Shown here in pieces: positions 38,641-58,960 of a stretch of DNA of 64,000 nt. This stretch comes from Heliocybe sulcata (Eukaryota; Basidiomycota; Agaricomycetes; Gloeophyllales; Gloeophyllaceae): assembly GCA_004369045.1 (NCBI GenBank), contig ML213511.1, positions 751,128 through 815,127 of the forward strand, given 5' to 3'. A program made the position numbers and the translations under genes. Numbering within the stretch: the stretch's first letter is position 1; each line of letters begins with the position of its first letter. The notes under the pieces are model-generated. The model searched no databases. It had not been told where the DNA came from and saw only the letters and a list, made by a program, of their open reading frames with translations.

Positions 38641-40245
38641 TTGTGTGATGCTCATACATCTGCTTGTTCATGAATGCAGTCTTTGTCTGCAGTGCAGTTG
38701 TCACCTCACTGTCTTGCTGCACTTTTACTGCTATCAGACTCTGCTGCTCTTGCCATGGACATATCTGTCAAAACAGTAGCCTTGCACCATTGCTATGCTT
38801 CTCCCTCATCTGCAAGATTTCCCCTCACCCTCACTATTGTCTTGCTGTTGCAGATGCATACCATACCTCAACATCAAGTTTTCTGACTCAGCTGCCTCAC
38901 GCTGGACGTATGCCTCAAAGCAGTTTTTACTGCTTTGAGACCCAGTCATGCACCTGCTTGCTGGATGTGTCACACAAGAAAGATGGAGGTTGTTGTCAGG
39001 TGGGAGCTGGCATTGCAGGCTGGTGCCATTGACATCAGGGGGGAGCATGGTCTCTATGACTTGCGAAGCCTGTTGCATCAAGACAGACTGCTGTGATGAC
39101 CAGGTTGTCTGGCAAGCTTCCACATACATCAGGAAAATGCAAAACTGTCTTTCGATCACTTTCCGACGATCTTCCGCTCTTAGTCGGGCGAAAGCCGCCG
39201 AAAAAGCCCCAAAAAGAGCAACATCAAAAATAAGTCAAGTTTTTCTTATGGTGGTCTTGTATTGGTCTTCGATGTATCAGACATCGAGACCTTATTCTTA
39301 CACTCAACTTGGACAGAGATCTTAGCCTACTTAGGGTATACCTGTAGAGTTTGGTCTGACGTTTATTTATTCTTATGCTCACATTCGGCGGTCTTACGGC
39401 CATCTTGGTCGACTTATTTATGCCTTCTCTAATGGCTAAGACGGAGCAAAGCACAATCTAAGTTTACCAAGATCGGCCGTAAGCCACGCAAACGCCAGGA
39501 AAGGATCCAGCAAAGACCGTTGAGACTTGCCTGAGACCGCGTAAAGTTTACGCCAAGTCGTCGTTAAGCTGTAGATAATACATACTGAAGTATGAAAGAT
39601 CCACTAAAGTTTGCAAAAAAGATTCAAGTAAGTATATAAGGAATACTGAACTCAGTCCAAAAGAAGTCACAAGACTCCAACAAGATGAAGACAAAACAAG
39701 TAACAAGCACGGAAAGTCTGGTAAGATTCAGATGAAGAGTGTCCTGAGAAGTCAAAAGAGATAGGTGATTGTTGCGAAAGTACCAAAAGTCTGACAGGAC
39801 TCGGAGAGCGCATATCAAGAAACCCTGCTTAAGACCGTCTGAAGTTAAATGTAAGTACGAAAACCCCGGGTAGATCAGCGGCAAAAGACATACAAAGAGT
39901 GAGTCAAGATTCAGAGGGCTTGAAAATGGTATGAGGGAAAGATCGGCCAGCACGAGGTTGAGGTCATGATGCGAAGTAAGGTCGACAAAGAGAGATACAC
40001 GGAAGTAGCGAGTTGGTACCAAGACAGCGACCGCACAAAGAGCAAGAAGATGGTGTTTAGAATCTGCTGCCGTACTGCCTCGTATAGCAAGAACATAAGC
40101 GCGTCCACGAATGGTCGAATCCCAAGATGTGGTAAGCAGCAGGCACCACCGAACAATGCCTGCGAATGGGTGTATGACCTTCATGAAAAGAAGCAACGTA
40201 GGTGTAAGGTTAAAGACATCTGTAAGGGAAGATTCACGTACAAGA

Positions 40246-43200
40246 CTACTTCTTGCGGCGAACTGCAAGAAGGGCCCTCTCATCCTCGTCCGAATCGTAC
40301 GCCTCCACGGCCCTGTAGCGTCGAGCAAGACCGCCGGCAATCTGGAGAGCGGACTGGATGAGATCCTCAACTTCCGTCTGGTCGAGTTGCTCTGCGCATC
40401 TGGACCACCCCCGAGTCTTCTTGCCGTAGTCGCCAGCGCTGAAACTACTTCCCGTGGCATCCTCATCGATGCCCTTGGACCTCTGCTTCTCAGAGGCTTT
40501 GCCGCGCGTAGCTTTGTTCGATGAACCTTCCTCGGATAGATTGCTCGGCAGGATCTTCACTTCGCCAGTGCTCGTCACCTTAACTTCTTTACGCTGCCAC
40601 TTCCGTAAGATCCGCTCCACCTATATGGAGTCTATGAGCACCAGTCGACAGCGTCAATGCATTACGTACTGCACATGCGGCGAGGCCAATAGCGCCGACT
40701 GGAGCCTTATCATGTCCTTGATGTAAAGCAGCAGAGATTGGCACGATGGTGGCATGCTTCACGATGGAGTAATGGAAAGCCAAGGTCTTGAGAATCAGCG
40801 CACCTTGCAACAGCCCGTCCCATTCCTATCCATTGTGAGCGGACGCAATCACAACCTCTATCTAAGACTTACGCTCGGGTCGCCATTGCCGTAGGTCTGC
40901 GCGAAGCTGAACTTATAGTCTTTGACGGCGTCCGCGGCATAAGCCTGACGTTGGCTGTACGTCGTGAATTTACCTGGTGGCGACTGCCAGTGTGCTTCCA
41001 GAACGTGGATGGCTGCACTGCCTAAGCCATTCCTCCAATCGTGCAGTCTTTTGTGTGTCTAGGATTGAGAGGAGTCAGTTCCAGAATGAACCATACCCAA
41101 GTTGAATGTACCATGATATAAATGGCATCCTTAGCCTTGACCTGATATTCGTTGTAGTCGTTACGGAAAACGGAGTTGTAGAGCTCCTGAAGCACTGGCA
41201 CGAAGTCTTCATCTCCGATCGTCCAAGGGTCGCGACGGGTCGCGACATAGTTATAGATGGTTGGTATGAACGTTTTGTTCCAACGTACATCGTGTCCGAT
41301 ACCACCGGGCAGATCAGCAATGGTAACACGTTTCTTCTTGCGTGGACCTGCTTCATCAGTTATTTCACTTCGGGTTTCAGAATCCAGGTCGTCTTCGTCG
41401 AAGAAATCAACCGTGGCAGCTGGGGGGCTGCCTGGTCGTCCAGCCGTGTCCGGTGCCTCAGGCGTAAATGACTTGGGCACGTGCTTCTTCGAGGCCTGTT
41501 TCTTCTTGGAGATCTATAGACCTGATGTGATAACCGAGGTTGTTGAACTGAACAGGAGAACTCACTACTTTGCTTGGGATTATATCCTCATTCAAGCGCT
41601 CGCTGACACCCGGCGCCATCTGTAGTACGCCATATGATCAGTGAGCGGCGATGTCTTCTGTGTAGCTAGCTCACCATGTCGGTGGTCCACCGATCTGATC
41701 CAGGAGGTGGGGCAATCAGATCGTCATTAGTGGGAGTGGCGATGGAGCGAGTACTACGAGCTGCCAGGATGCCGCCTTGCTGGTCAGCCATCCGAGCCCG
41801 TTGAGAGTCGCGCCAATCTTGAACTACTGCATGAGAGCCTGGAGGTCCATCACGGTGGTCTTGAGAGTCGTCACGCAGGATGCCTCGGCGATTTTTTAAA
41901 GCAGTTAGCCTGTCTTGATGCTCGCCTTGTTGGCCCTGAACAATGTCGCGGCGATCATATAGGATGCCGCCACGGTCTTGAGAGACACCTCCTAGGTCTT
42001 GAGAATCATGTCGTCGGTCTTGATAGATGTCGAGGCGATCACGGAGGACACCTCGGCCGTCTTGGAGGCCACCGCGGTGGCCTGGAGGGATGCCTCGGCT
42101 CTCTTTGACACTGTCTCGAACGTCATGTTGCCTGCCTTGAAAGCCGCCTAGGCTGCCCCGAGTAATGCTGCGATGGTCTTGAGCAGCATTGTGTCCATCC
42201 TGATGCTGGGCGCGCTGATCCCGACGAGAGTCGCGCTGGCTTTGAGGAGGGTGATCTCGTGCTTGAGCTGCATCACGCCCATCACAATCATTCAGAGGTC
42301 TTAGATATTCCTTTTGATGAAGTTGCAGGCTCTCGGCGTGGTCGGGGCGCTTACTGTAAGAATTGTCGCCCACAAAAGCAGGAGGACTCTCCTCGTCGCA
42401 TGTGTATTGATGGCCTTGTGGATAATCTTCGTCGTCATCAATGCGGTTCATGTGACGCCGACTAGGCTTTTGACGGGCGGTGACTGGGCGCTCTTCATCC
42501 TGCTCACTGAGAGAGTCTGAGTCCGAGTCTCCAGTAATGCCAGCTGTGCTGTCCTTGACAGTGTATGCCTTCTAAAATTCGAGTCAATTTTTTGTTGATG
42601 ATGATGGAGTAAGACGGCTCACTGATTGAGCTGCGCGTGCTGCCGTGGTCTTCACAGGTGAGCGCAATGCAGAATACCATTCTGTATCCTCATCACCACT
42701 GTCAAAGAAACTGGACTCGAGCCAGCGAGGGGTCTTCTTCTGGTCAGCTGATGATCTATTGCCCAGCACAGTGTCGCTCGCCCTGGGAGCATACCTGTGG
42801 ACATCGAGGCGTGGAAGTGGTGTCGGAGTGGCAGCAAAAGGAGCACGACGGGTTGTCTGCACGAGTGGCGAGTGACTTGAATGGCCATCGACGCCCCATT
42901 TCGTAGACTGATGAATCTGGAATTCGCCGTGGACTGGATCGACAACTTGAAGGACTTCTTCACGCGCATAGGTAGTTTTCCCAGGCTTATCAGCACTGAA
43001 GGGGTCGTGTGAATATAGGCTTCGCATTCCGAAGCAAGCAATGCTTACCGTGGTGTTTTGTCTTCGTCTTCCGACATGTAAGTCCTATCGATGTCCTTGA
43101 TGGACAGAGGCTCACATTGGGCTACTCTTTCCTCACTAGGGGATGGGAAGCTCATGTCATTGGTCTGAGCCAACTTGGTTTTTTTGAGTGGCACGGCCTC

Positions 43201-43884
43201 GGTAGAAAGGTCCCCGGACAACTCCGATAGCGTCGACAACTCCCTGTCTGTCATTGACTTATTGCTGAACATACTGACGTCCGAACTTGGGTCAAGAGTG
43301 TGATGCTCGTCGGCGTCATGCACCAGGGTATTGCCGGCAGTAGCTCGGTCAGAGCCCTCCACATCGGCTGCACTGTGCAAGTCCGCACTGCTGTTCTGAC
43401 GCACCGGAGGACGTGGTGGTTGCAACTGTGCAATGTTGGTAATGCGACCTTGATTTTTGTCAGCCTCAGCTTGAGCTAACTTCTGCTCCAGCTCGGCAAC
43501 CTTCTTGGAGGCTGATGTCTCGTCTCCGAGCAGAACGTCCTTGGTCTTCTCTTGCCCTGTAGACTTCTTCGATCTTGCAGCAGCCTTCTTGCCGGTAGCA
43601 CTGGCGGCCTTCGTGTTCGTCTTGTCAGTACCTGCCTTCACCTTTGCCGCGTCTTTCTCCGCCTTCGCCTTTTCTCTATCTGCCTGCTTCTGCTCCGCTT
43701 TGATCCTTGCTGCCTCCTTCCTCTCCTTGGCCTTGCGCTGGCGCTCTACCTTTAAAGCAGCATCATCTGCCATCTTCTCTGCTGGTGTTCTACGCTTCCG
43801 CTTCTTTGGCTCTGACCCAGGATAGTTCTCTGAGTCCGACGCAGGAGGAGGAAGCACCACTGGTGCCCTCTTGGCCCGAGGCAT
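40246..43884 (-). CDS. Plavaka-element partner protein, function unknown
   Basis: Eight exons: 43,884-43,049, 43,019-42,623, 42,571-41,675, 41,619-41,569, 41,513-41,112, 41,058-40,873, 40,825-40,670 and 40,620-40,246. All introns are GT-AG and the frame closes to 1,099 residues. The start is the ATG beginning MPRAKRAPVVLPPPAS, with basic KKRKRRTPAEKM close behind (a nuclear signal). Then a long Ala/Lys/Glu coiled coil (residues ~45-130) and acidic Ser-rich stretches follow. Next is an Arg/Asp/Gln-rich region of irregular ~10 residue repeats (QDRGGILYDRRDIVQ). The C-terminal part has DPWTIGDEDFVPVLQELYNS, HDWRNGLGSAAIHVLEAHW, GLAACAVERILRKW and SAGDYGKKTRGWSR. That C-terminal pattern is common in uncharacterised Agaricomycete proteins. 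Its divergent pairing with the transposase suggests an accessory DNA-binding role like TNPA of plant CACTA elements; that is inference. Confidence 0.75.
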
Positions 43885-44153
43885 GCTGTTGTTCGAGTAG
43901 AAATTTGAGGCTCGGGATAAGTGGGAGACGGTGGTGGGTGAGTGGAAGGACGGATGGTTGAAGTTCAAAAGTTCAACTTGCTTATTCATGCAATTCAGTA
44001 GCGGGCACTTGAATGTTGGATTTTCCCGGTAGTTTGGATTCGGGTGAGTGCGAGTGGCGCCCATTCCTCGAAATTTCGCTAAGTCCACATTCCCAGGCAG
44101 CCTCTAGGTTACTTGCACCTGTTCATTTCTTGCAACCGCCTTCGCAAATAATC
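43885..44153. promoter_or_regulatory. Shared divergent promoter of the Plavaka gene pair
   Basis: Only 269 bases separate the two start codons, so one region must drive both genes. It has no clear TATA box. The run to the transposase start is C/T-rich, as is common before fungal start codons. Confidence 0.6.
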
Positions 44154-47100
44154 ATGAGCTCGGCACCAAACACATCCCTTCCTTACGAGCCGCAAGAAGC
44201 ATCCTCCATATGCTGCTCCGACTGCGGAAAAAAATTCCGGAGCTCGGGAGGTCTTACGAAACATCGTCAGTTATCTCATCCATACCGGCCAACTGCAGAT
44301 GCAGCTTATGCTCCTACGGCCTTGGGAGTGGTATCTCAGGCATTATTCGACATACACGGTTTTGTCCCTGTCAATTCATGGGCTGAAGGATCGCCTGCCT
44401 GTGCGGCTGAATCAATGTCACTTCACCCCACCGGCTCATCACCGGCTGGTCACGGTATTACACAGGACAGTCTCGCTCCTGTATGTCCTGAGGAGGAAAC
44501 TCCTTTCATCGCTCTACCGTCACCCGGTATTCCAGATGATCGCGCATTTTCGGCCTTGCCCCCGCGAGTGGCTGTGGAATCTCATGTATCTGGCTTCGTG
44601 ACGCCACCCCGCCGTCGGCCTGCCAATAGCGACAAGAATGCACCAGAGCACTTCAGGTATTTCATGCCCTCTCCCTTCGCTCAGCACCCAGACTTCGACT
44701 CGCCCGACAATGTCTTTCATCCCTACTTCTATGACTACAGTGATGCGGACCCATTTGCTCCCATCACGGAGAGCGATCAGGAAGACGATGTCTTCCCAGA
44801 CGAGGAATCATCCTCGGAAGCTTCATACAGTAGGGACCGCGATTGTGCACCTGACGCAGAAGACATATTCGCTCCAGAAGCGGCGGAGGATGCATATATG
44901 GAAGAGGAGAAGCATGCAGGCCAACGTAAGAGTGATGATGGGGACTCGCAGGATGAAGGTGATGGCGTCGGATACGCGTGCAAGCATCCGGGCGCAGGTG
45001 CAAACAGCAGGTCCCGGGATCCTCTAGAGGATGACGGTATGGATGAAGACCCGAGAACAGAGGAGGAAGGACACACGCAAGAGGAAGAAGACATGGGTGA
45101 GGGCATCGATATTGATTGCATGGATACGGGAGAGGATGTGGGTGGTGTTCGGGACACTATGGACTGGGGGGACAGCGTAAAACCCGCAGATTATGGCTAC
45201 AAAGCGGAGAGCGGAGACTTAATGGATTGCGACAGTGAAAGAGAGGACGCGGACCTCACGGCTTGGGTCTATGATGAGGAAGTACCGCTGCGCGCCCACG
45301 GGCAAAATATTGCCAGTTGCTATAGCCCGAGCAACGTCGCGGGACATGGTCCGAACCAGCCAGGTCACGAACTTGGGCGAGTCTCGCTAGACCGCGGACC
45401 TGAGGAGCGCACTGCCGTATCTAGCGGTCATGGGCCTGCAGCGGCGGCATCCGCTGCTGAAGGTGGTATAACAGGTCCCAGAGATCAGAGTACAACCAGA
45501 GGAGCTGCTGTAGATGTCGAGGCAGCGTCGGACGGTATCGTGATAATCACACATCCGGACTTGAATGGTGCGATATTCAGACCCTGCTCTTTACTCTCCA
45601 AATCTGACCTATCAGTCATTAGGTACTCCGTGTGATGCGAAGGGCAACCCTATAGTGGCTAGGGAGTCCTGTCTGCAAGTGTCGTCTTCCTCCTCGTCTC
45701 ACTCGACACCTTCCGCAGCATCCGAACCCGACGCCTCGTCACTTTCATCAGAGCACCCGAAGTCTAATCCATGGGAGCCATTTGACGACAGAGAAGGTTT
45801 CGAGCTAGCGGAATTCTTCTTCACCGATGCGAAGATGTCGAAAAGAAGAATTACCAGACTGCAAAAGCTGTGGGCAGCACGGCATGGGGGAGACTCGCCT
45901 TACCTTGATGCTTCGCACATGTACAAGGTGATAGACTCCGCTAGGCTCGGAGATGTTAAGTGGGACTGTTTTGATGTGGATTATCGAGGAGAGAAGCCTC
46001 CCGGGACTGTTCCCGACTGGATGTCAAAGAAATATGAGGTCTGGTACCGTAATCCACTCGAAGTGGCACGGCAGATGCTCTCAAACAAGGATTTCGACAA
46101 AGAGATTGATTACTCTGCTAAGAGAGTATTTAAAGATGGCATCCGGCAATGGCAGGACTTCATGTCGGGCAACTGGGCATGGGAGCAATCGGTGAGCTTT
46201 GCTACTCCAGGTTAACGACAAATACTAACTGGCTACGTCAGACTATCATTGCAAAAGATCCCGAGACTCATGGAGCAATGTTCATCCCTATCATCCTTGG
46301 TAGCGACAAAACTACTGTTTCTGTTGGCACAGGTGACAATGAGTTCTACCCATTATATATGATGCTGGGCAACCATCATAATGCCGTGCGCCATGCCCAT
46401 CGCAATGCTGTTGCATTGATTGGCTTCCTAGCTATACCGAAAAGTGAGTTCTATCTGCATCAACCTCCAAACATGGGCTCATGGGTGTAGCCACCCGGCA
46501 ATACAAAGACAGTGTCCAGTTCCGAAAATTTCGGCAGCAGCTCTTCCATGTATCACTTGCTCGTATCCTCAAATCTCTGAAGCCAGGCATGACCAAGCCA
46601 GAAATTACTTCTTGCACTGACGGAAACTTTCGGCGTGCTATCTATGGTTTGGCCTCGTACATCGCTGATTACCCCGAACAGGCGCTGTTGGCCTGTATTG
46701 TTCAAGGGTGGTGTCCTAAGTAAGTCTTGTCTTCGGTGACTAGATGAGGAACCGTGCTCATGCATCCAACAGATGTCTTGCGAAGAGCAGTGAACTTGGT
46801 GCAGATGGCCCATGGCCTCCTCGCAGATGTGAACACGTCGAAGAACTCATCAAGTCCTTTGGACTTGGGACCTTATGGGACAAGTATGGCATCGTCGGTG
46901 ATATTGTGGTAAGCATGTCCGTGAAATTGATTTCCGCATCCATTTCTTTGTTTCGTGGCTTCGTTTCATTCAATTTCTCGTGTTTCTTTCTCTACTGCAA
47001 TTGAGGGATGTTCGAGATCAGGAACATGGTCCCGAATCTGTCAGGCTGCTTCCAGTCTGGCGCCCGCCTTGAGGGCGAGGAGAGACAGTGCTGTGCTGTT

Positions 47101-50100
47101 TACGCAGCAAGTTTTGATACGTCCGGGATGCGTGAGGGCAGCTTGTCTGTGAACGAGCCCACGACAACGCTGCACTTCAATCATCTCACTCTCAACGCCT
47201 GTGCCTCCTGCATCCCAGATGGTGAGCTGTGCGTCCTCTCGGCGTTCAGTCACGTACACCTGCTCAAAAGGACCGCTTCTCCTGTTCGAGATCATTCATC
47301 CCCGGAAGCACATCCCACACACCATCTGGTTCTATTTCGGCGTTGGCAACCGCATCCATTGCCATCAATACAATTGTCAACTTCAGCTATAACAACACCA
47401 GCTCATCGCGGCGAAGCTTCCCTAGTGCTCTGCGCTTGATGGCGGGAGGCTCATCCTCATTGACGTCATTACTGGCGGAGACCGATTTATGCTTCTGGCA
47501 GGCATGCTAGTGGCGCCACGGCAATCAGTCGAAGAGCGTCGGTGAGGTTACGAGTATTGGGCGGACATTTGAGGAGACAATATAGAAGGCTATCAGGGCG
47601 ATTGATGATCAGTTCCTTGGGTTTGCGAAGGTCAGCTATCCATTCAATATTGCATTGTATGTGGCTACTTACAAATCATTAGAACGGCTCTGTCGAGGAT
47701 ATCATGGTGAACTACGACCCGGACACCGTCAGTACCGATTACGACGAAGCCGATCGTTTGTACTTCGAGAACATCAGCTTGGAGACCGTACTTGACATCT
47801 ACGACGCCAAGCGGTCCTGTGGTGTCATCCTCTTCATAGGTGGCCAGACGCCGGACAATATCGCGCTACCGTTGTATCATCAGAGGATCTACAGTACCTC
47901 CCGGAGATAATTGATATGGTGGAGAGTCGGTACAGGTTCTCTCGACTGCTCAGTGAAATCCGGGTTGACCAGCCCTCGTGGAAGGAGCTGACGACCATCG
48001 AGGAGGCCGCTTTCTGTGCGACAGTCGGGTACGCAGCCTTGGTTCGGCCCTCTTGTGTCCTGTCTAAAGCTGCCATGAGCTTTCATGCCAGACGACTTGC
48101 AAAGTTACTTGACCCAGTCGACGGCGGTGTCCCGAGAGCACCCTGTGGTTATCACAAAACACACCAAAGGTGCCAAGGAGGTCGAAATGGGTGCCATCAC
48201 CAAGGACCGCATGATGGTCATGCACTACATATCGGAACACGTCGAGAACGCTGGTGTCTATTCAGGCGATGCAATGCTCATTCATCCGCCACACGATCTG
48301 GATCCTTGGACTGTTCGTCAGATAGAAGAGGCTGCTGCAAAGATCGGTAACTGTCTGAACATGACTGGTCCCTTCAACATCCAGTTCATCGCCGAGAACA
48401 ATGAGATCAAGGTCACTGAGTGCAACCTCTGTGCCGCATACTCATTCCCTTCATATCGAAGGTGACCAGTGTTGATGCCATAGAAATGGTGACGACTCAA
48501 GGTTTTGTTGGCCTTCCAGCAGAAGTATACCCAGACTCAGGTTTGTCCGCGGATTATGTCGGGGTCAAGGTGCCGCAGTTCAGTTTCAGTTGATTGTCCG
48601 GGGCCGATCCCATCCTGGGCGTTGAGATGGCCTCCACTGCTTTTGGCAGGTTAAGTATGAGGCATATCTGCAGTCCCTCATATCAACGGGTATCATACCT
48701 TCGGAACAGGATATTCTATTCTCAATCGGCGGCTACAAGGAGAAATTAGAACTACTTCCGGTCATTCAGAAGCTGCATGCAGCTGGTTACAACTCTTTGC
48801 TACTGCGAGTACCGCTGATCTCTTCTCGGAGCACAATGTACCCTGCAAGGTGAGTTATTCCTATCTTGTAAATGAACTATAGTGACGTCTAAGACAGTAC
48901 CTCGAAACACTAGGCAAGGAAGTGAAGCCAGAATACGACCTGGCCCAGCATCTGGCTAACAACCTGTCCAACATGTCCATAAATCTGCCATCCAAGAATC
49001 ACTATCGGCAGCCTGCGAGCTACACGAGTACAGGATACCATAATCGGCATATGACCATTGACTTCACCATTCCGCTTACAACCAATGTCAAGTGTGTCAA
49101 GCTGCTCGCTGGGGCCCTAGTCCAGAAGCTAAGTTTGGATGTCGCACCGGTCAATATCTAGACATCACACCGCATGCACATGTTCCCTGGCCTCGTCAAC
49201 GTCACTAGCTTTGTTCCAGGTCTGACTGTCCCGGGTAGCGGCGACTTTGTGGAGGCTACCAAGATCAGCGCTGGTTTCACCAGGGCTGTCGTAGTGTCTG
49301 TCGGCCGCAGCAACAAGATAGCTGACCTGGCCACTCTTGAGCGCGCTTGTGCCAATGCCAAGCACTCAGTGTTTTGCAATTACACTCACGTGATGCGCAC
49401 CCTCACTGTGTGTCTTTCTTGTGGCAAGTCCCTGGACGACCTCTTCCCCAATCTCCGCACTGCCTTGTGGACATTCGCCAGGACAATGATCTGAAGAAGC
49501 GGTTCTACAGCTTCTCCACCTATGCACCCCAGAGCCTCGGTGAGCCAGATATTTCCACTCGGCAAAGTGCATGGAGCGGTACTCGGAGCTGCATCAGCCC
49601 TGGCGAGACCTCATGTCTCAGGCCAGGACTCGAAAGTGGGCCGGAAATGGAAGGCGGACATAGGAAAGATTAATGATGACTGGACGGCGTTCCAAACGAG
49701 TGCTCGGATCGATCAGGACCAGGATATTCAGCGTAGTCGGGGCGACACGTTTGGGAGTGATTTGGAGGATGCAACACTTGAGGCTGGGAGTACAGGCATG
49801 CAGATTGCCGCTATGCAGGCGAGCTCGTTCTGTCAGGACATCTTCCACGTTTACATGCCGAGAGTGTTTCGTGCTCAAGGATACCCTATATCAAGGTGTG
49901 TCATGTTGCGGGTCTTACATTTTCGGAGTGCTGATGAATGCTTTAGGACTGAGTACAAAGGCACCAGGACCAAGTTTGTTCTGCCATCCGTGACAGTGCT
50001 GACGTCGACATCGCCGTCCCGCCAGAGAGTTGTCAGCGCCTTCACGCACATCACTTCTCCGATTCCTGGCCTATATGTCCTCCTCGCCATTCTCCAGCTC

Positions 50101-53100
50101 CTGCACCTCACTCAAGCCGTGGCTGGCCAACCGCGGTCATGTGGATTCGAGGGATCGGCTGGGAGTGAAGGCCTTCGACTGACCACTGTGCTTAGTGTTT
50201 CCTGACCACGTGCGCTGTATGTTGGAACGGCAAAAGCGCTGAGAGAAGCAATGGAGATAGGGCATGCAGGCCTGGCAATGAGGATGATGGAATGTGTAGT
50301 CGACGGCGTCCACATCTGCTGTCCTCATTCTTCAGTCCGAGGTCATTGTCGGACTTGGATGATGTGGGTGATGAGAGCAAGACGGAGATAATCGCACTGG
50401 CAAAGAGCATCTCGACTGCATTGGAAGTGCAGAAGACGATCCAGCAGCAGGTCAATGACGAGCAGAAGCACAAGAAGCAAGACAGGCTCAAGGCAAGCTG
50501 CGAAGACCACGGGCAATGAATAGTTGCTGTCAATTGAGGTCGAGCATTTGAGGCTGATCAGGATGACATGGGACCAGGAGGACGTGCAGCTGCCAGACGA
50601 ATGCTCAGTACATTTGCCCATCCCGAAGCTCTTGATTCATCAGCTTATGCATCTGTCTTTTATCTACCTGTCACATCTGGTCACTGCCCACATACCAAGA
50701 CACTGCGCGGTGCTATTACTAGTACTTTCTTCCTTGGTGAACTGGCAAAGAAGCTGATTAATGTCAAGGCGTCCGGTGCACCTCCTCCCTCTGTCTCTCG
50801 GCCTCTTTCCAACGAAGCCAACAGCAGCTCCTCTAAGTTCTTCCGGCCTGGCTCGCGGGATGGCTAGAACAGCAGGCAGCCTTATCTCTCGTATGTGATC
50901 TATGAGGCACCAAAAGGTCATCTGCACTGTTGCATACAATGAAGGCCGCTTGCAAGGAACGGTACTGTCTGTGCTGGCCCTATATCCCAGCACCCGAGTG
51001 CGGAATGCGAGGATGAGCGCGGGCGGATTACGTCGTCCTCTACTCCATGCAAGTCGGGCGTCGACCGTGCACATAGTATGTCTCGGCTGTGTGCTGCACC
51101 TGCACCTGATTCTATCTCCCCTCCCCCGCCTTCACCACTGCCCGCCATTCTCCGTCTCGGTGTGAACTTGATGCAGCGGCAAGTGCTTGCAGCACTTCGA
51201 CACGGTTGAGATCGGGCCTACTACAACTACGGAGGATGTCATCAAGTCGGTCGTGAGCTAGCATGAGTGACTCCCTCCTCGAAGGGCATCAACAGTATCT
51301 GTAACAGTGCGTTATATCTCCTCCTTGCTCTACAGTATCAACATATTAATGAACAATGGCATGCAGTTGCTGGCCGCACAATGTTTTGGGCACCGTCTCG
51401 ACCAGCTGGAGCGCATCATCTTCAATGATAATCCTCTCAAGTTCAGCTTCCGCCAGATCTCCTATCAGCCTGTCGTGTCCCTCTTCCACATATGGCTGGC
51501 ATTGCTGAAAATACCCCCAAGCTCCAGGACTTGCTTCCCTCGATGCCTACCACGGCACGCACCCTTCGCTGCTACCCTCCAAATGAGCGGGATGACAGCC
51601 GGCAATCAGCCCTTCTCTGCCCGAAAGTGATAGATGTCAATGTGAGGGGCTCTGACAACAATCCCAGTCTCATCCCCGCCATACCTATCTGACAGGGAAA
51701 GTGTGTCTACTTAGGCTTGAAGCACCCGTGCGATGTCTAGCTTGGCGCGCCTAAGTCTGTCTGCATGTAGCTATCCGAACACCAAGCATCCCAGATTTCC
51801 GTTGTCCTGGCTATATGAAGGCAGTCGCGAATGGCATCATCAAGGGTACGCAGATCCTTCAGCTCTGGCTCAAGAGCAACCGGATCTCAATCAAGATGTT
51901 GTGGATGTTCCGATACTGCAGGACTCCTCAATCCAGCCAGCGTACGTGTATCAATCCACCACCACAGCGTCTTCTGGACATTCTCGACCATTGGCTTATG
52001 TTTCTGCCTTGCACCGTCAATTACTGTCGTCCTCCAGTGCAGGGTCAAATAACTTCGCCCCAGGTATTGCTGCCTCGCTGCTTCTACTGGAACCGCCTCA
52101 ATATTAAGAGCAGAGGAGCCATATCTACATATAGTGTTGTCCTACAATTGCCGGCTATCGACCTGCGCTTGAAGAGTCCTCTTGAAGGTTGCCGTGCTCG
52201 AACTTGCGAGATAGCTCCTCCATATACAGTCACGCGTTGTTGGGGACTCCCAAAAAGGCTATACGACTCACAAAAGCATTATCGTACGGTGCAGATGACG
52301 TCGGATACTACCCGCTTGGAGGCAAGTGCATTACTGCAGGCGATTCATACTCAATGTGTTCTTATCTCCCGAGTCGCAACGGTATGCGTGGCTCTATCAC
52401 TATGCACGAACAGTCATTGGGGATCTCGGATACAACCTTATATCTTCATATATCAGTCAGCATCGACTGCGGCCAGGACTCTCCCGCTACACGAAACTCC
52501 CGAGCCTCTTTGCCAAAGCCTCTTTGCCAATGCCTTCTCCTCTTATGAGTTCCCTGAAACCTCCGTTCCCTCAGCAAGACGCAAGTCAGCAAGTGCCGAA
52601 TGTCATGGCTGAGACATCCGAGGCATTTTCTTACTCGATCAATGCAAACTCGGTCCACTTCCCAGGTGATCCCGCCATGAGCGCGGAGGAGCTGCAGATG
52701 CGATGGGAGCTAGGTCCCTTGGCTGCTGGCCTGGACCTGGGATATTTGACAATCGCTATGACTCACCTTAGTAAGTATGGCTGTTGGTGTCGTTGTATGC
52801 TCTGGCTTATTTCAGTATCAATCAGGAACAATCCTGACAGACATACGGGAGTGGTGGCCCCTGGAGAAGTCACCTGCTTGTTTCGTGCCAGCAACAAAAC
52901 ATTCGATGATACCTGGTACGCCCTGAAGTTCTACCACTGGCATGCTGTGTACCTGATGATTGCCACAAGAAACACCTCTCGTACCAGAAATGCCAAAACT
53001 CGAGGGTATCTTCTCGCCCATTCCGCCTACCTGGGAACCCGGTCAGATGGCGGAGGATTATTACGTGGAGTGCTTGAAGCGATACCTCATCTCTGTGGTC

Positions 53101-55731
53101 GCCAGGAGCGGCTTACCTGGAACCGTGCTTGACCTCGTACTGTGCTATTTGAGGGAGCTTCAGCCTTTCGTCCAGAAGGCTCGAGAAGAAGCGCTCCAAA
53201 CCCCTCCTGTTCTGCTCGCAAAACCATGGAGCCCCTTGATGCTCTTCCCATCCTTCATGCTTTGCCCGTATCGGGCTCTCGTAGCATGTGTCATGTACTC
53301 CGTAAAGTTGTACAGTCACTACAACTTCGGGATTCATGAGCTGAGCTGTGCGATGTGGGCATCCATCTCCGGGCTCAGTCTTGACGAGCTGAACGTGGCA
53401 TATGCTCTCGGCGCGGATCTAGAGATCGCCTGGATGGGCAGTTTCTAGGATAGGACAAGTTTCTTGCAATAAATCATGGTGAACTCCCGTTGAAACAACC
53501 TCTCAGTCTCCCTGATGACTCCAGTGCCATGTATCTTGGACACAATGGTCTCAATATCAACATCCGCTGAGCGATGTCCTCGGGTCCGGTCCGATTTACC
53601 AACATACTCAAGCTTTGATTATTGGCCTCGATGTCGACTAGGCGAAGACGGTGACTGTGGACTCGTAAGACATCATCATGATTCTATGCTCCGGGTATTC
53701 ATCCCGCCGATGCTCGATGTTCGTATGCAATGCCGTTGGTGCCATGACATATCGACGTCCACCGAACGAGTACCAACTTTGACGTCTGGACTATGCAGAC
53801 AGGCTCGACGACGCTGATGATATAACAGCATGTGGTGGCAGAGGCTGCACGACCTGGCTCTTTCTGTACCTCGGCAATCTTCCGACACTCACCTCGGATT
53901 CCTGGTTGTCATCGACAGACACCGTGGCTATACTAGCCAAGGCCGTTCTTTTCTTTCCTCCTCAAATCTCATTTTCATTCATGCTTTACTATCATTTTCC
54001 TTCTCTGCTCGTCTGCAGTTAACAGCTCCACTGACAATGCATTTTAGCCCTTCACGAACGACTTCCCCCGTGCGGATATACATGAACTCATCACCCCTGA
54101 TATCCTACATCAGCTTATCAAAGGCACGTTCAAGGATCATCTCGTTGACTGGGTCGTCGAATATCTGGCCTCCAAGCATGGCAAGGCAAGATCGGATGCA
54201 ATCTTAGCGCAAATTGACAGGCGGTACGAGATGGCTTTTTCAACTAAGCAGATGTACTTATGGATCACGCAGAATTGGAGCTGTCCCCCTGTTTACAGGA
54301 TTACGAAGGTTTCCAGAAGGCCACGGGTTCAAGCAGTGGACGGGCGATGATTCTAAGGCATTAATGAAGGTTCGTCCACGATGCTGCCTGCCAGCGTTTC
54401 GCCAGCGTCATGTCCTCATGCCGTGTGTCAGGTTTATCTTCCTGCTATTGATGGTCTGATACCGCGCGACATGGTCCGTGCTATCCGCGCGTTTCTTGAC
54501 TTTTGTTACCTTGCTCGTCGCGATGTACACACTCCGACAAGTCTCGCGCAGCTTCAGGAAGCACTGGGTCGGTTTCACAGATATCGAGCAGCATTCCGAG
54601 ATGCCGGAATCCACATCGACTCCCTTCCCAGACAGCACTCCCTTGACCATTACTTCCTGGCTATAATGGACTTCGGTGCTCTGAACGGAATATGCTCATC
54701 AATCACAGAATCGAAACATATCAAGGCTGTCAAAGAGCCTTACCGTCTTTCAAACCGATTCAAGCCACTCCGCCAGATGCTACTCACAAACCAAAGACGT
54801 GATAAGTTAGCCGCTTGCCGCGTAGATTTTGAGAGCCGCGGGCTGCTTCCTAAGTCTTGTAAAGATGAGTATAATTCGTAGTACGATATATGCTGACGCT
54901 ACCCCTGGTTTACTAGCGAAAGAACCCAAGAAACCTCCAAAAAAGCCTCCACCCATACACCTTGAGGATGGAAGTGTTGATGGACCACGCGTGGCTGACT
55001 ATGTCATGCTCGCGACAAGATCTCGTGAGTTGAGCACCTCCTTGCTCTGTGCTATGGATTCTGACTGTCGGGTAGGCCGGCAGCATCACCATCAACCTGT
55101 CAGCCTCCCCGATGGATCACCTCGTATGACGTTTCATCATCTCCTGCAGCTCTTTTTGCAGGATCGTCTGAAGAGTAGTCATATGCTGTATGGCCTCAGA
55201 GAACTCCCAGATTTCGACGGTGTCATCTCTATTCATTATTCTGCTGCTGCGACATTCTACGCTCCCAGCGACCCATCCGGTATAGGAGGAATGCATCGCG
55301 AACACATCCGAGCCAATCCTTGCTGGCGCGGGACTGGTGGTCGCTTTGACTGTGTCTTGATCAAACCGTTGCTAGTGGAGGACGACTCCCCCCGGCCGCC
55401 CTGGGAGGTTGCAAGAGTCTTCGAGCTTTTCTCGTTCCAGCATCTTGGTGAACAGTATCAGTGCGCGCTCGTGCACTGGTTTGACTGGGTCGGTGACTCT
55501 CCGGACGAAGACACTGGCATGTGGGTCATTCACAAAAGGCGGGACCAGGATGATTCTTTAGCCATCATATCCGTGGACCGTATACTACGGGCGGCACATC
55601 TTATCCCGGTGTTTGGAGAGAGGGAAGTCAATCTTGACATCACTGAAACGAACAGCTTAGATTCGTATCGGCTGTTCTATCTGAACAAATACGCTGATCA
55701 CCACGCTTTCGAGCTCTTGCATTCAGGTTAA
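44154..55731 (+). CDS. Plavaka transposase
   Basis: Ten exons: 44,154-45,567, 45,623-46,191, 46,242-46,443, 46,491-46,719, 46,773-46,908, 54,048-54,223, 54,273-54,369, 54,432-54,858, 54,917-55,024 and 55,076-55,731; joined in phase they give about 1,337 residues. The last intron is probable, with a CTGAC branch site. Residues ~20-45 form a C2H2 zinc finger ([17 protein letters not shown]). A long acidic linker follows. The transposase core reads [71 protein letters not shown] and GDIV joined to [14 protein letters not shown]. It continues with [49 protein letters not shown] and [15 protein letters not shown], then [20 protein letters not shown]. This is the full Plavaka signature, and no break is seen. 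The acidic residues of the RNase H-like core are expected in the GSDKT and TESKH regions. Intron 5 is 7,139 bases and is described separately. Confidence 0.92.
47530..49490 (+). pseudogene. URA2: Captured URA2 (CAD) fragment: CPSase large half to dihydroorotase-like domain
   Basis: In order: KSVGEV and GRTFEE from the end of the first CPSase half; [35 protein letters not shown]; and [20 protein letters not shown]. Then follow [83 protein letters not shown], and, after an intron still in place (48,850-48,897), the dihydroorotase-like part [29 protein letters not shown] and [16 protein letters not shown]. In yeast URA2 these stretches are contiguous and start pyrimidine synthesis. Here the frame is interrupted several times, parts are missing near 47,640 and 48,465-48,660, and the aspartate transcarbamylase end is absent. 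The kept intron shows capture at DNA level, not through mRNA. It is a non-functional host gene fragment. Confidence 0.9.
52960..53448 (+). pseudogene. Captured fragment resembling a Pcl-type cyclin
   Basis: An open stretch of ~162 codons reads [56 protein letters not shown] and [20 protein letters not shown]. The order (RS.....VL..AL.YL, then CPYRA....S.K, then W..ISGL...E.N) matches the cyclin box of fungal Pho80/Pcl-like cyclins, which activate Pho85-type kinases. It has no ATG of its own in frame near the start, and stops lie just upstream, so it is probably a captured exon or exons and not a free gene. The match is by pattern only and moderate. Confidence 0.5.
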
Positions 55732-57309
55732 CTTCATTTGGGGTTGGTTCTAGTGCTGCAATTGTTCGTATCTTTTACTCTTACTGATAAACTCTTGCTC
55801 TCCGTACAGCTCCCATGATCTCTTTTGCGGTCTGCGTACACACACTTTGTCTCGTCTTTCTTATAATCACTTATTTACTTCGGTGCGTCTCTGTAGAATC
55901 TTCGTAGGGTCTTTGTCTCTATGTGTTCTACTTTTGTCCGCTCTCCGCCCGACCTTCCCGGCTTCTCGTCCTTATGCTGCTTGACGGCTGTCTCTGCCGG
56001 CTGACTTCTGTCATCTTACTAAGCTCTTGATGCCCGAGCATACCGTTTCCATCCATCTTTTGCTGATCTTGCCCGCTTTGCTGCCTTATTGGGTTTGACA
56101 GGTCCGTTGCTGCACTCTTTTAGTGTCTTCGATACGTATTTAGCCTCACTTATATACTTTGGGGCATGGGAAGACTGAAAGAAGCAAAAAAAGTAACTTT
56201 AGCATTTTGCTGATGTATTGTTGTGCCTCACCAGTACCTCCTTTTACTTGCAGCATTGTACACCTACTAATACAACCCAGCACTTAGTGGCCTCTGCCTG
56301 CAGGCAGAGAGTGGAGAATGCAGAACATTCATTACTACAATGTCAAACTATTCCTAGACTACAAAATTGAATGTGCTGCGACTATCCAGTACATGGAACA
56401 GTACTCTGCCGAAATCATCTTGTGGTTCCATACACTTGCTACGCTCATGCTTGGGAGGGCATATGACACCGTACTCCCAGGTACCGCTCTCATTCCTTGA
56501 AATGTGTCCACCTATCAACCCATACTTTGCCTGTGCTCGATGCTCAATGAATTGCTCAGCGTAGTCTGACTGTGCCAGCCTCTCACCCACCAGGCTTGTG
56601 GAGAAGAGGCCTGTTGGCCAGGGGGTCGGCTCAGGCATGGATTGCATACCGTAGTCTGAGCAAGCCATTTGCTCGCCCCAGATGGGGGAGGATCCACAGC
56701 TGAGTGCTATTGTCAGCGAGGATGCACTGGAGATGGAAGGTGTATTGGAGATGTTGCTGCAACCCTGCTCATCCAAAGTCTTGCTCGTCTCCTCCTTCTT
56801 TCCCTGAGGGGCAGTCTCCATGTACTCCAGATGGTCGGTGGCAGTCAGTGGAGGTGTAGCAATGGAACTGAGGTCTCATTGTTCTGTGGTGACCCAAGCA
56901 GGCCATGCATCCCACGAGAGAGGTTTTGGCTGATAGAGGCGAGGGCTGTACTGGAGCTGGTTGCAGTTCTCGGGTGTTTTGCCGAGGGTTGAGCCCGATT
57001 GCTCATGATATATCTGACTGATGCCTCAGTTTTGTGCAGAAAATCATTATATTGAGGATTGGTACCTTGATGACATCAACAATGCCTCTGTTGGGTGGGC
57101 CAGAGATGATACTATCCCTGACATCCATATCCTCCTTTACTCTGCTGCTGGGCCTGCTGCATGCCAAAATTGAACATATATGAGACATGAGAGATGAGTA
57201 AGGGGAGGGGTGCAGATTTAGTGAAGCGCTGATATGGCCAATCAGGGTTTAGTGCTCCAAAAATGCATTTTAGGGTCGTTTGGTGATCGCGGTGACATTG
57301 CGACTCTAT
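55732..57309. other. 3' flank of Plavaka and CpG-poor DNA
   Basis: Bases 55,732-56,150 are the transposase 3' region and right flank of the element, T/C-rich with no gene. From 56,150 CpG becomes rare. A 155-codon minus-strand frame at 56,354-56,821 (CSDYGMQSMPEPTPWPTG) is open, but I recognise nothing in it. Confidence 0.45.
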
Positions 57310-58400
57310 TGCGCATGCACTCGCTGCTGACAGCTCCTTGGAAGGCGAGCGACGACTCTACTGGTGACCCCGACTATTCACTCTGGCAGCGAGCTCGTGA
57401 CTCTATTCCCTGCAGCATGGCGCCACTCTCTCTATTCAGTGGGACTCACTGCAAAACGATCTATTCTAGTCTCAGAAGCTATTCTTGGGCTTGGCCACAA
57501 TGACACGTAGGATCTGGCATCCGGATCTTTCCGATCAAGTCACCAGCAGCTCGGCACAACACAGCCCGGTTGGTTCCAAGGAGTCTAGGCCATCGAGTCA
57601 TTCTAGATCGACCATCCCACTAAATGTTGTTCCCATCATCACCGCTGCTGCCCGTCGGGGCGCATGCTCAGGGCACCCATATGCATCAATTCACTGCCTC
57701 CATCATCGGTTTCCGGCTCCCTCTGCATGATGCATCACCATCCTGACCCACTACCCCTTTCGGCACAACCGCGCCACTCTTCGGCAACTACGCCCGCCAC
57801 TCAAGTTACTGTGGCATCACCGCATCAACACAAGGTCTCGTATGGCGTGGCGCGAGGACAAGACTCGTTGCGCGTTTCAAGCTAGGCTACGAGCGTACTC
57901 ATGCAGGTACCGCGCCGCGAGGAGACGATAGGATTGGTAGGAAAGTTAGGTACAGGGCGGTTGAGGCGATGCGTGCCTTGTGGACGAGCGCGCGATGCAG
58001 GAGATGGTTTGCGGAAGATGGTTTTCTCTTCATGTGCGACTGCGAGTAGTGTAGCGGCAACGTTTGTACTTAAGTCCTTTCTCTTTGTCTTGAAAATACA
58101 AGTTATCTTCACCCTTCGTATCTTGTTCTCGGCGTAAGAGTTTCCTCTAGAGTATCAGGCTTTCGACGGTCTTCCGACTTCACCCAGAGTTTACGCGAAC
58201 CTTCTGACAGCGTGCGCGACAAGTGAGTTCTTTCATTTCGAGTTTCTCTTAAGTCCGGCCTCATGCACCGTCCACCTCGTTAATCACGTTCGAGTTGTCT
58301 CGAGTTTTAGAAGCGTCGCGCATCGCACCGATGGCATTGTACGCATGCCTCGATTGCATTGTGTAGGCAATCCCGAATCCACTCCCTCCGAGACCATGCG
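57310..58400 (+). mobile_element. Internal-region relic, second copy
   Basis: Counterpart of 24,121-25,213 with far more CpG kept. It shows the same CAGCTCCTTGGAAGG start, TGGTGACCCC box and AAAATACAAGTTATCTTCAC block. It has no LTR at its left edge. It is a broken retroelement interior with no enzyme domain visible. Confidence 0.5.
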
Positions 58401-58594: not shown

Positions 58595-58960
58595 GTCCCT
58601 CCGAACGTTTATCATACCCTTCGTCGCCCTGGACCTCGCAGCCATCTAACACCAAGGGACTGGTGCTACACTTTGTGGTTGTTGTTCCCCTTTAGGTCTG
58701 TGCGGGTTTCATTGCGTGTTAGTGCCTTTCAGCATGAGGACAAGACTCATCACACGTTTCAAGCTAGGCTACGAGCATACTCATACAGGCACTGCGCCGC
58801 GAGGAGATGATAGGATTGGTAGGAGAGTTAGGTACAGGGCGGTTGGGGCGATGCGTGCCTTGTGGATGAGCGCACAGCACAAGAGATGGCTTGCGGAAGT
58901 TGGTTTTCTCATCATGTTTGACTGCGAGTAGTGTAGCGGCAGCATTTGTACTTAATCCAT
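58595..58960 (+). mobile_element. LTR end fragment joined to a second internal piece
   Basis: Bases 58,595-58,730 match the last ~135 bases of the LTR family (ACCAAGGGACTGGTGCTACA ... GTGCCTTTCA). Bases 58,731-58,960 repeat 57,853-58,080 (GAGGACAAGACT, AAGCTAGGCTACGAGCATAC, TTGTACTTAA). It is another broken copy, with much of the interior missing. Confidence 0.55.

Follow-up and report, generated by a model that had tools for sequence, protein, structure and literature searches.

The transposon and its ends

The window (the whole 64,000-nt stretch of Heliocybe sulcata DNA analysed here, C9:751128-815127) was searched against its own genome, an assembly of 31.6 Mb in 51 contigs, which are referred to by C numbers. 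It contained a complete PlavakaB-type element of 17,089 bp (~17.1 kb) on the plus strand, at 39127-56215, bounded by the inverted ends CATCAGGAAAATGCAAAA and CATCAGCAAAATGCTAAA with TA on either side. The left terminal inverted repeat (39127-39144, plus strand) had CATCAGGAAAATGCAAAA at 39127. The right one (56198-56215, minus strand) had CATCAGCAAAATGCTAAA ending at 56215, with 2 mismatches in 18 against the left end.

The left end was the exact start of homology to a sister element on C8. This sister is 23.4 kb long and is flanked by a CA duplication, and its ends, located at C8:1176072 and 1199466, are the same as in the window. The end pattern, with up to two mismatches, occurred 28 times in the genome, versus 3 for a reversed control.

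The available part of the description of PlavakaB (PMC12730594) gives it termini of 5'-CATCA..TGATG-3' and duplications of 2-3 bp. The window element had CATCA..TGATG termini and a 2-bp target duplication (TA), as expected from this rule, besides the Pfam PF18759 (Plavaka) transposase domain, and was therefore placed with PlavakaB. Assignment to CACTA/EnSpm proper was rejected, the termini being CATCA and the duplication 2 bp rather than CACTA-type and 3 bp.

The transposase gene

The exons of the transposase were modelled on the basis of open frames and splice signals, with the C8 copy for comparison; the start codon of exon 1 was our choice. It placed nine exons on the plus strand: exon 1 at 44154-45567, exons 2-5 at 45623-46191, 46242-46443, 46491-46719 and 46773-46908, and exons 6-9 at 54048-54223, 54273-54369, 54432-54864 and 54917-55731. 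In this model they formed a frame of 1,356 codons without stop or frameshift. The introns measured, in order, 55, 50, 47, 53, 7,139, 49, 62 and 52 bp.

The Plavaka profile PF18759 matched exons on either side of intron 5, exon 2 among them, with 100.7 and 65.3 bits (cut-off 26.3), and the exon past intron 5 started at position 290 of its 325. The lengths of exons 2-8 were identical in the window and the C8 sister. Between these two copies dN/dS was 0.085 for exons 2-5, 0.02 for exons 6-8 (with dS near saturation) and 0.12 for exon 9.

One lesion was visible. The last intron (54865-54916) begins with AT, in place of the GT found in the C8 sister. This altered splice site may be recent, and the copy may be damaged today. 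The C8 transposase contained two in-frame stops. A relative of exon 2 was also sought in viral contigs, where three pattern matches were obtained and none was confirmed.

A single large intron with boundaries common to the sister copy

The original prediction had described one transposase intron of 7,139 bases amid very small ones. This was exact: intron 5 spans 46909-54047 (plus strand), is ~140 times longer than its neighbours, and the other seven range from 47 to 62 bp. It begins with GTAAGC and ends with TAG, and the C8 copy has an intron of 2,388 bp, also GT..AG, at the same place. A branch-point-like motif, CTGAC in the window and CTAAC in C8, lies just 5' of the terminal TAG.

Both ends of the intron were common to the two copies. 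The first 105 bp (46909-47013) aligned with C8 with a score of 57, compared with a best score of 39 in 200 shuffles; all such controls were 200 plain letter shuffles. The common 3' end (53888-54047) included the CTGAC and the TAG. Here the homology begins at 53948 at the latest, and 53888-53951 alone was not significant (score 38 versus a best shuffle of 40).

The length of intron 5, unlike that of the other introns, could be explained if the two halves of the transposase were separate genes and the 7.1 kb between them were intergenic DNA. On the other hand, the TAG that ends the intron is an in-frame stop directly 5' of exon 6, where the conserved block starts at once, and this is so in both copies. 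This argued against a stand-alone gene made up of the downstream half. Comparison with other Plavaka copies pointed the same way. The genome contained 13 Plavaka matches, and all five of the distant copies inspected ran continuously over the intron 5 point; another five were outside the inspected set, and a copy on C20 was broken at this point. The C20 copy (at 196 kb) retained only parts 3' of intron 5, without a match to the cyclin-like gene described below. The separate-gene explanation was thus considered highly improbable.

Host gene pieces inside the intron

When the DNA of intron 5 (7,139 bp) was compared with its own genome, ten matches were obtained: the window itself, the C8 intron, C10:999085, and the rest at four donors. 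The C10:999085 match (72% over 154 bp), which falls within the URA2 piece, resembles a paralogue.

The first piece, C7a (47048-47526), came from C7:300312-299695 and matched it at 75.6% of aligned bases. It was followed by two URA2 pieces, a (47526-47703, from C9:888612-888793) and b (47701-49387, from C9:889307-891040). These overlap by 3 bp (ATC), and 513 bp of the donor is absent between them. A HAM1-like piece (49389-50052, 81.7%) came from C13:674702-673977. Piece C7b (50212-51257) came from C7:299138-298025 and matched at 78.2% of aligned bases, and the last piece (51275-51534) came from C10:166305-166563. All six lie on the plus strand. Together they cover ~4.3 of the 7.1 kb, and ~1.8 kb of the intron had no donor match.

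The URA2 sequence with its own intron and the unnamed coding-like blocks of the original prediction were thus traced to host sources, the former to C9 and the latter to C7, C13 and C10. The intron gave a match to Pfam CPSase_L_D2, and the host URA2 gene lies at C9:886-893 kb. The URA2 and HAM1 names were taken from Pfam matches on the donor genes. The C7 donor is an unnamed frame of 1,146 codons, which had no Pfam match. The C10 donor gene resembles what we take to be a histidine acid phosphatase. The pieces were 75-87% identical to their donors in the same genome, with URA2 at 87% of aligned bases. The alignment scores, with E values down to 0 for the URA2 pieces, excluded chance.

The captured pieces were broken. 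Over 3,630 aligned bases they showed 25 indels that shift the frame, they also contained five in-frame stops, and their dN/dS values against the donors were 0.27-0.50. The joins between pieces share 0-3 bp. Donor introns, located from the donor reading frames, were kept in the copies: two in URA2, one inside each piece, and one in HAM1. This indicated that the template of capture was DNA.

The same observations bear on capture through RNA, in which retrocopies of host messages would have been inserted into the intron. All the pieces of known gene direction are in the transposase sense, as such copies might be. The three kept introns contradict this route unless unspliced precursors served as template, and no poly(A) was noticed when the joins were read. 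We regard it as hardly credible.

Pieces C7a and C7b, from one donor gene, flank the URA2 and HAM1 pieces, and ~556 bp of the C7 sequence is absent between them. The simplest history would be that the C7 piece was gained first, and that URA2 and HAM1 then entered it. Since the latter two lie inside the C7 sequence and have diverged less from their donors, the block appears to have grown by insertion into itself.

The C8 sister intron had no match to 47048-51534 (score 35 versus a best shuffle of 41). In the genome search the C8 intron DNA matched only itself and the window, and no second copy of the URA2/HAM1/C7/C10 mosaic was found there, only the separate donor genes. The comparison showed the host pieces in the window copy only, where they were added, after the split from the C8 sister, between the 5' intron end and the cyclin-like gene described below.

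Helitrons and Pack-type elements typically contain mosaics of host pieces, and the 5-kb mosaic resembles their content. It might accordingly be a separate gene-carrying transposon of such a kind that jumped into the intron, and the ~34 bp before C7a and the 17 bp between C7b and the C10 piece, which have no donor, would leave some room for this. A search of 46900-54060 for inverted and direct repeats did not bear it out. The repeats listed were scattered pairs of 14-31 nt only, and among the 25 longest of 49 inverted repeats there was no long, well-paired repeat at the block ends. The absence of a second genomic copy of the mosaic also speaks against such an element, and we consider it quite improbable.

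A cyclin-like gene older than the host pieces

Downstream of the mosaic, the window and C8 introns have a gene in common. Its 5' region (52148-52522, plus strand) aligned between the copies with a score of 138, compared with 46 for the best of 200 plain shuffles. The gene (52530-53445, plus strand) was modelled as three exons encoding 269 amino acids, and the positions of the exons and of the ATG coincide between the copies. The region 52614-53476 was 69% identical. The comparison showed that the common ancestor of the two elements already had a large intron, with a predicted three-exon cyclin-like gene on the same strand. This gene is the only intron cargo common to more than one element.

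Between copies, dN/dS was 0.21 for exon 3, 0.24 for the exon-1 block and for all blocks, and 0.42 for a middle block of 28 codons; exon 3 read in the shifted frames gave 0.94 and 2.2. Such ratios alone are weak evidence here, because the decayed captured pieces also give low values. The unbroken frame was better evidence, and the case that the frame was kept leans on it. There was no frameshift in 267 compared codons, only one in-frame gap of 6 bp. At the decay rate of the URA2 piece, 4.0 lesions were expected (P(0) 0.019). At the pooled rate, which includes indels possibly dating from the capture itself, 6.7 were expected (P(0) 0.0013). The C8 copy of the gene has one in-frame stop.

The identity of the product was less clear. 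The protein had no Pfam match, and a search against PDB sequences gave nothing usable (best phmmer hit, E 1.3). Only one other protein of the same genome resembled it, on C4 (E 0.08, collinear, 30-40% identical). This host protein scored 19.9 bits with PF08613 (Cyclin), just under the cut-off of 21, and hhalign of the two gave E 4.3e-5 and a probability of 69.5. An AlphaFold model of 161 residues of the cyclin-like exon had a mean pLDDT of 42.3 and a pTM of 0.35. The probable cyclin of the original prediction therefore gained a C4 relative near the family threshold and no direct match in Pfam or PDB, and its cyclin-like identity is a weakly supported lead. The prediction had also counted this block among the captured host genes. 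That part did not hold: it is, judging from the comparison with C8, an older gene whose frame was kept, unlike the captured scraps.

Probable use of the transposase after the intron grew

The decay of the captured pieces was used as a yardstick for the transposase. At the URA2 rate, 20.2 disabling lesions were expected in the transposase frame and none was seen in its codons (P(0) 1.8e-9). The rate from all four-source fragments gave 33.8. In these counts every difference from the donors is taken to be a change within the element later than the capture, and some indels may be as old as the capture.

Since the transposase frame remained open over the time in which the URA2 piece decayed, the transposase was probably still in use after the growth of the intron. 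So selection on it would have outlasted at least part of the intron growth. On the same ground, the 7.1-kb intron would have been spliced well enough for transposase production.

It could be argued that the copy is dead, that the transposase failed when the intron grew, and that the mosaic is junk in a corpse. The AT start of the last intron, the broken transposase of the C8 sister and the single copy of the mosaic would all agree with this. However, the 1,356 codons hold no stop or frameshift where ~20 would be expected at the URA2 rate, and the large intron of the ancestor already went with a transposase that was strongly constrained, as judged from dN/dS. We consider a dead copy unlikely.

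The idea that genomic DNA was captured in the intron without wrecking the transposase was thus supported by the donors on four contigs (C7, C9, C13 and C10), the kept introns and the open frame, and by the lack, among the intron repeats listed, of ends that a nested transposon would have.

Captures outside the intron in the C8 sister

The C8 element also contained host pieces, in a stack between the transposase and the right end (C8:1187797-1199466). In order, these came from C20:523976-524333 (84.9%), C12:454448-455614 (89%), C15:162986-166121 (93.5%), C12:459126-459724 (89%) and C20:524334-525865 (about 93-93.4%). The arrangement is nested, C20(C12(C15)C12)C20, and from one C20 arm to the other the donor sequence continues without a gap (524333/524334). 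The age order is not clean: the outer C20 arms gave 84.9 and 93.4%, C12 89% and the inner C15 93.5%. The region also contained a multicopy repeat and further host pieces: a second one from C20 (82%), one from C30 (84%) and one from C20:393 kb (76%).

Capture and stacking are thus a habit of the window/C8 element family, with the intron as one of at least two compartments. The earlier description of the intron as a store of captured genes was therefore right in that the intron cargo is real, and overstated in that the host pieces of the C8 sister sit 3' of the transposase, outside the intron.

Gene direction could be read for seven of the nine host donor loci (URA2, HAM1, C7, C10, C20:524 kb, C12 and C15); the C30 and C20:393 kb pieces were outside the count. 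The basis was the longest open frame for C7 and C20, and putative motifs for C12 and C10; those of the C12 donor are presumably of the ABC-transporter type. All seven were in the transposase sense (one-sided chance, 1 in 128). In the intron the blocks likewise all followed the transposase direction, as predicted.

A proposed mechanism of intron growth

We interpreted the fifth intron of the transposase as a tolerated landing place for DNA, which has grown stepwise in a near-intact, autonomous PlavakaB transposon. Taken as a whole, this explanation is very probable. Breaks or excision gaps in the element would be filled with sequence copied from ectopic sites, with little or no overlap at the joins. 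Inserts in exons or at the ends would kill the element, and those in the intron would be spliced out. The intron would then be the compartment of the survivors, and would offer a larger target with each gain. Gap repair with such a survival filter was favoured, since it explains the short joins, the kept introns, the nesting and the spared exons together. Gap filling with short overlaps has been described for animal Pack-TIRs, in the available part of that study (PMC8277862).

The original prediction had added that the captured DNA could travel with the element. The host pieces were seen in one copy only, and the cyclin-like gene alone was inherited by more than one element.

A stronger version would make intron 5 a lasting cargo bay, which had a working gene before the split and has been stacking host pieces. 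One transcription unit would make both transposase and cargo by a choice between splicing and termination, and this choice would set the transposase dose. If so, the intron would both hide the cargo and control the dose. We regard this version as rather doubtful.

Comparison with known systems

Among DNA transposons, those known to have captured host pieces are chiefly non-autonomous. For Plavaka, the available part of PMC12730594, which uses a Kojima-type classification, reports cargo of TET/JBP genes, of which there was none in the pieces given to Pfam, and host pieces in a transposase intron are not mentioned in that part. Pack-TYPE and Pack-TIR elements and transduplication (PMC8903248, PMC8277862), as far as the available parts describe them, show the same features of several host pieces between terminal repeats, short overlaps and copying from DNA. 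The Pack-TYPE elements are, however, non-autonomous there. In the window element host pieces also lie between terminal repeats, but it has an open transposase and holds the pieces in its intron.

Among plant elements, Tgm-Express1 of soybean (PMC1947982), in the accessible part of the report, is a CACTA-group element with five host gene pieces that include exons and introns. There a 6.44-kb intron is at times cleanly spliced out and at times gives chimeric RNAs. In that case the element sits in the intron of a host gene, whereas here the host pieces sit in the intron of the element's own transposase. CACTA-like elements of Chenopodium also contain captured gene pieces, but the accessible part of the report (PMC8978399) places these in the 5' region and not within coding sequence.

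In fungi, host-derived genes have been described in a Pyrenophora hAT transposon that shows transduplication (PMC3538342), and Helitrons carry genes in Pleurotus (PMC4289320). Both belong to other superfamilies, and captured host DNA within an intron of the transposase is not described in the available parts of these reports. Among the papers listed on Plavaka and gene capture, no title or opening of an abstract concerned host pieces in a transposase intron, which is no proof of absence. Gene capture by DNA transposons is known; as far as the literature searched shows, its occurrence in a transposase intron that also has a resident gene is new.

In this locus the pieces were captured in an intron of a transposase gene whose frame is open, all donors are in the same assembly, and the sister represents the state before capture. 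It can therefore be tested where an active element gains DNA without loss of function, and in what order. It can also be tested whether a fungal spliceosome is able to remove an intron that exceeds the others ~140-fold in length. Both in the window intron and 3' of the C8 transposase, the inside-out stacking suggests a target that enlarges itself.

Other features in and around the element

The left part of the element contained a region of minus-strand reading frames (40194-44103), two blocks of which are conserved between the window and C8 elements (67-73% identical nucleotides). These frames had no Pfam match at the gathering score, and are perhaps accessory genes of the element.

A third left end, at C16:176649-178367, was 84% identical to window 39127-40866 and was followed by a multicopy repeat with at least 43 matches. 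At first it resembled a further autonomous copy, but the multicopy repeat takes over beyond 178362, and it was of no use for the comparison.

Some of the genomic matches to the end pattern were miniature elements of ~200 bp with the same CATCA ends, at C2:148 kb, C27:205 kb and C12:559 kb, where 2-bp duplications (TC, TA and TG) could be read. Just outside the window element there is a direct repeat of 220 nt (57854-58073 and 58736-58955), the two copies of which are 89% identical and 882 bp apart.
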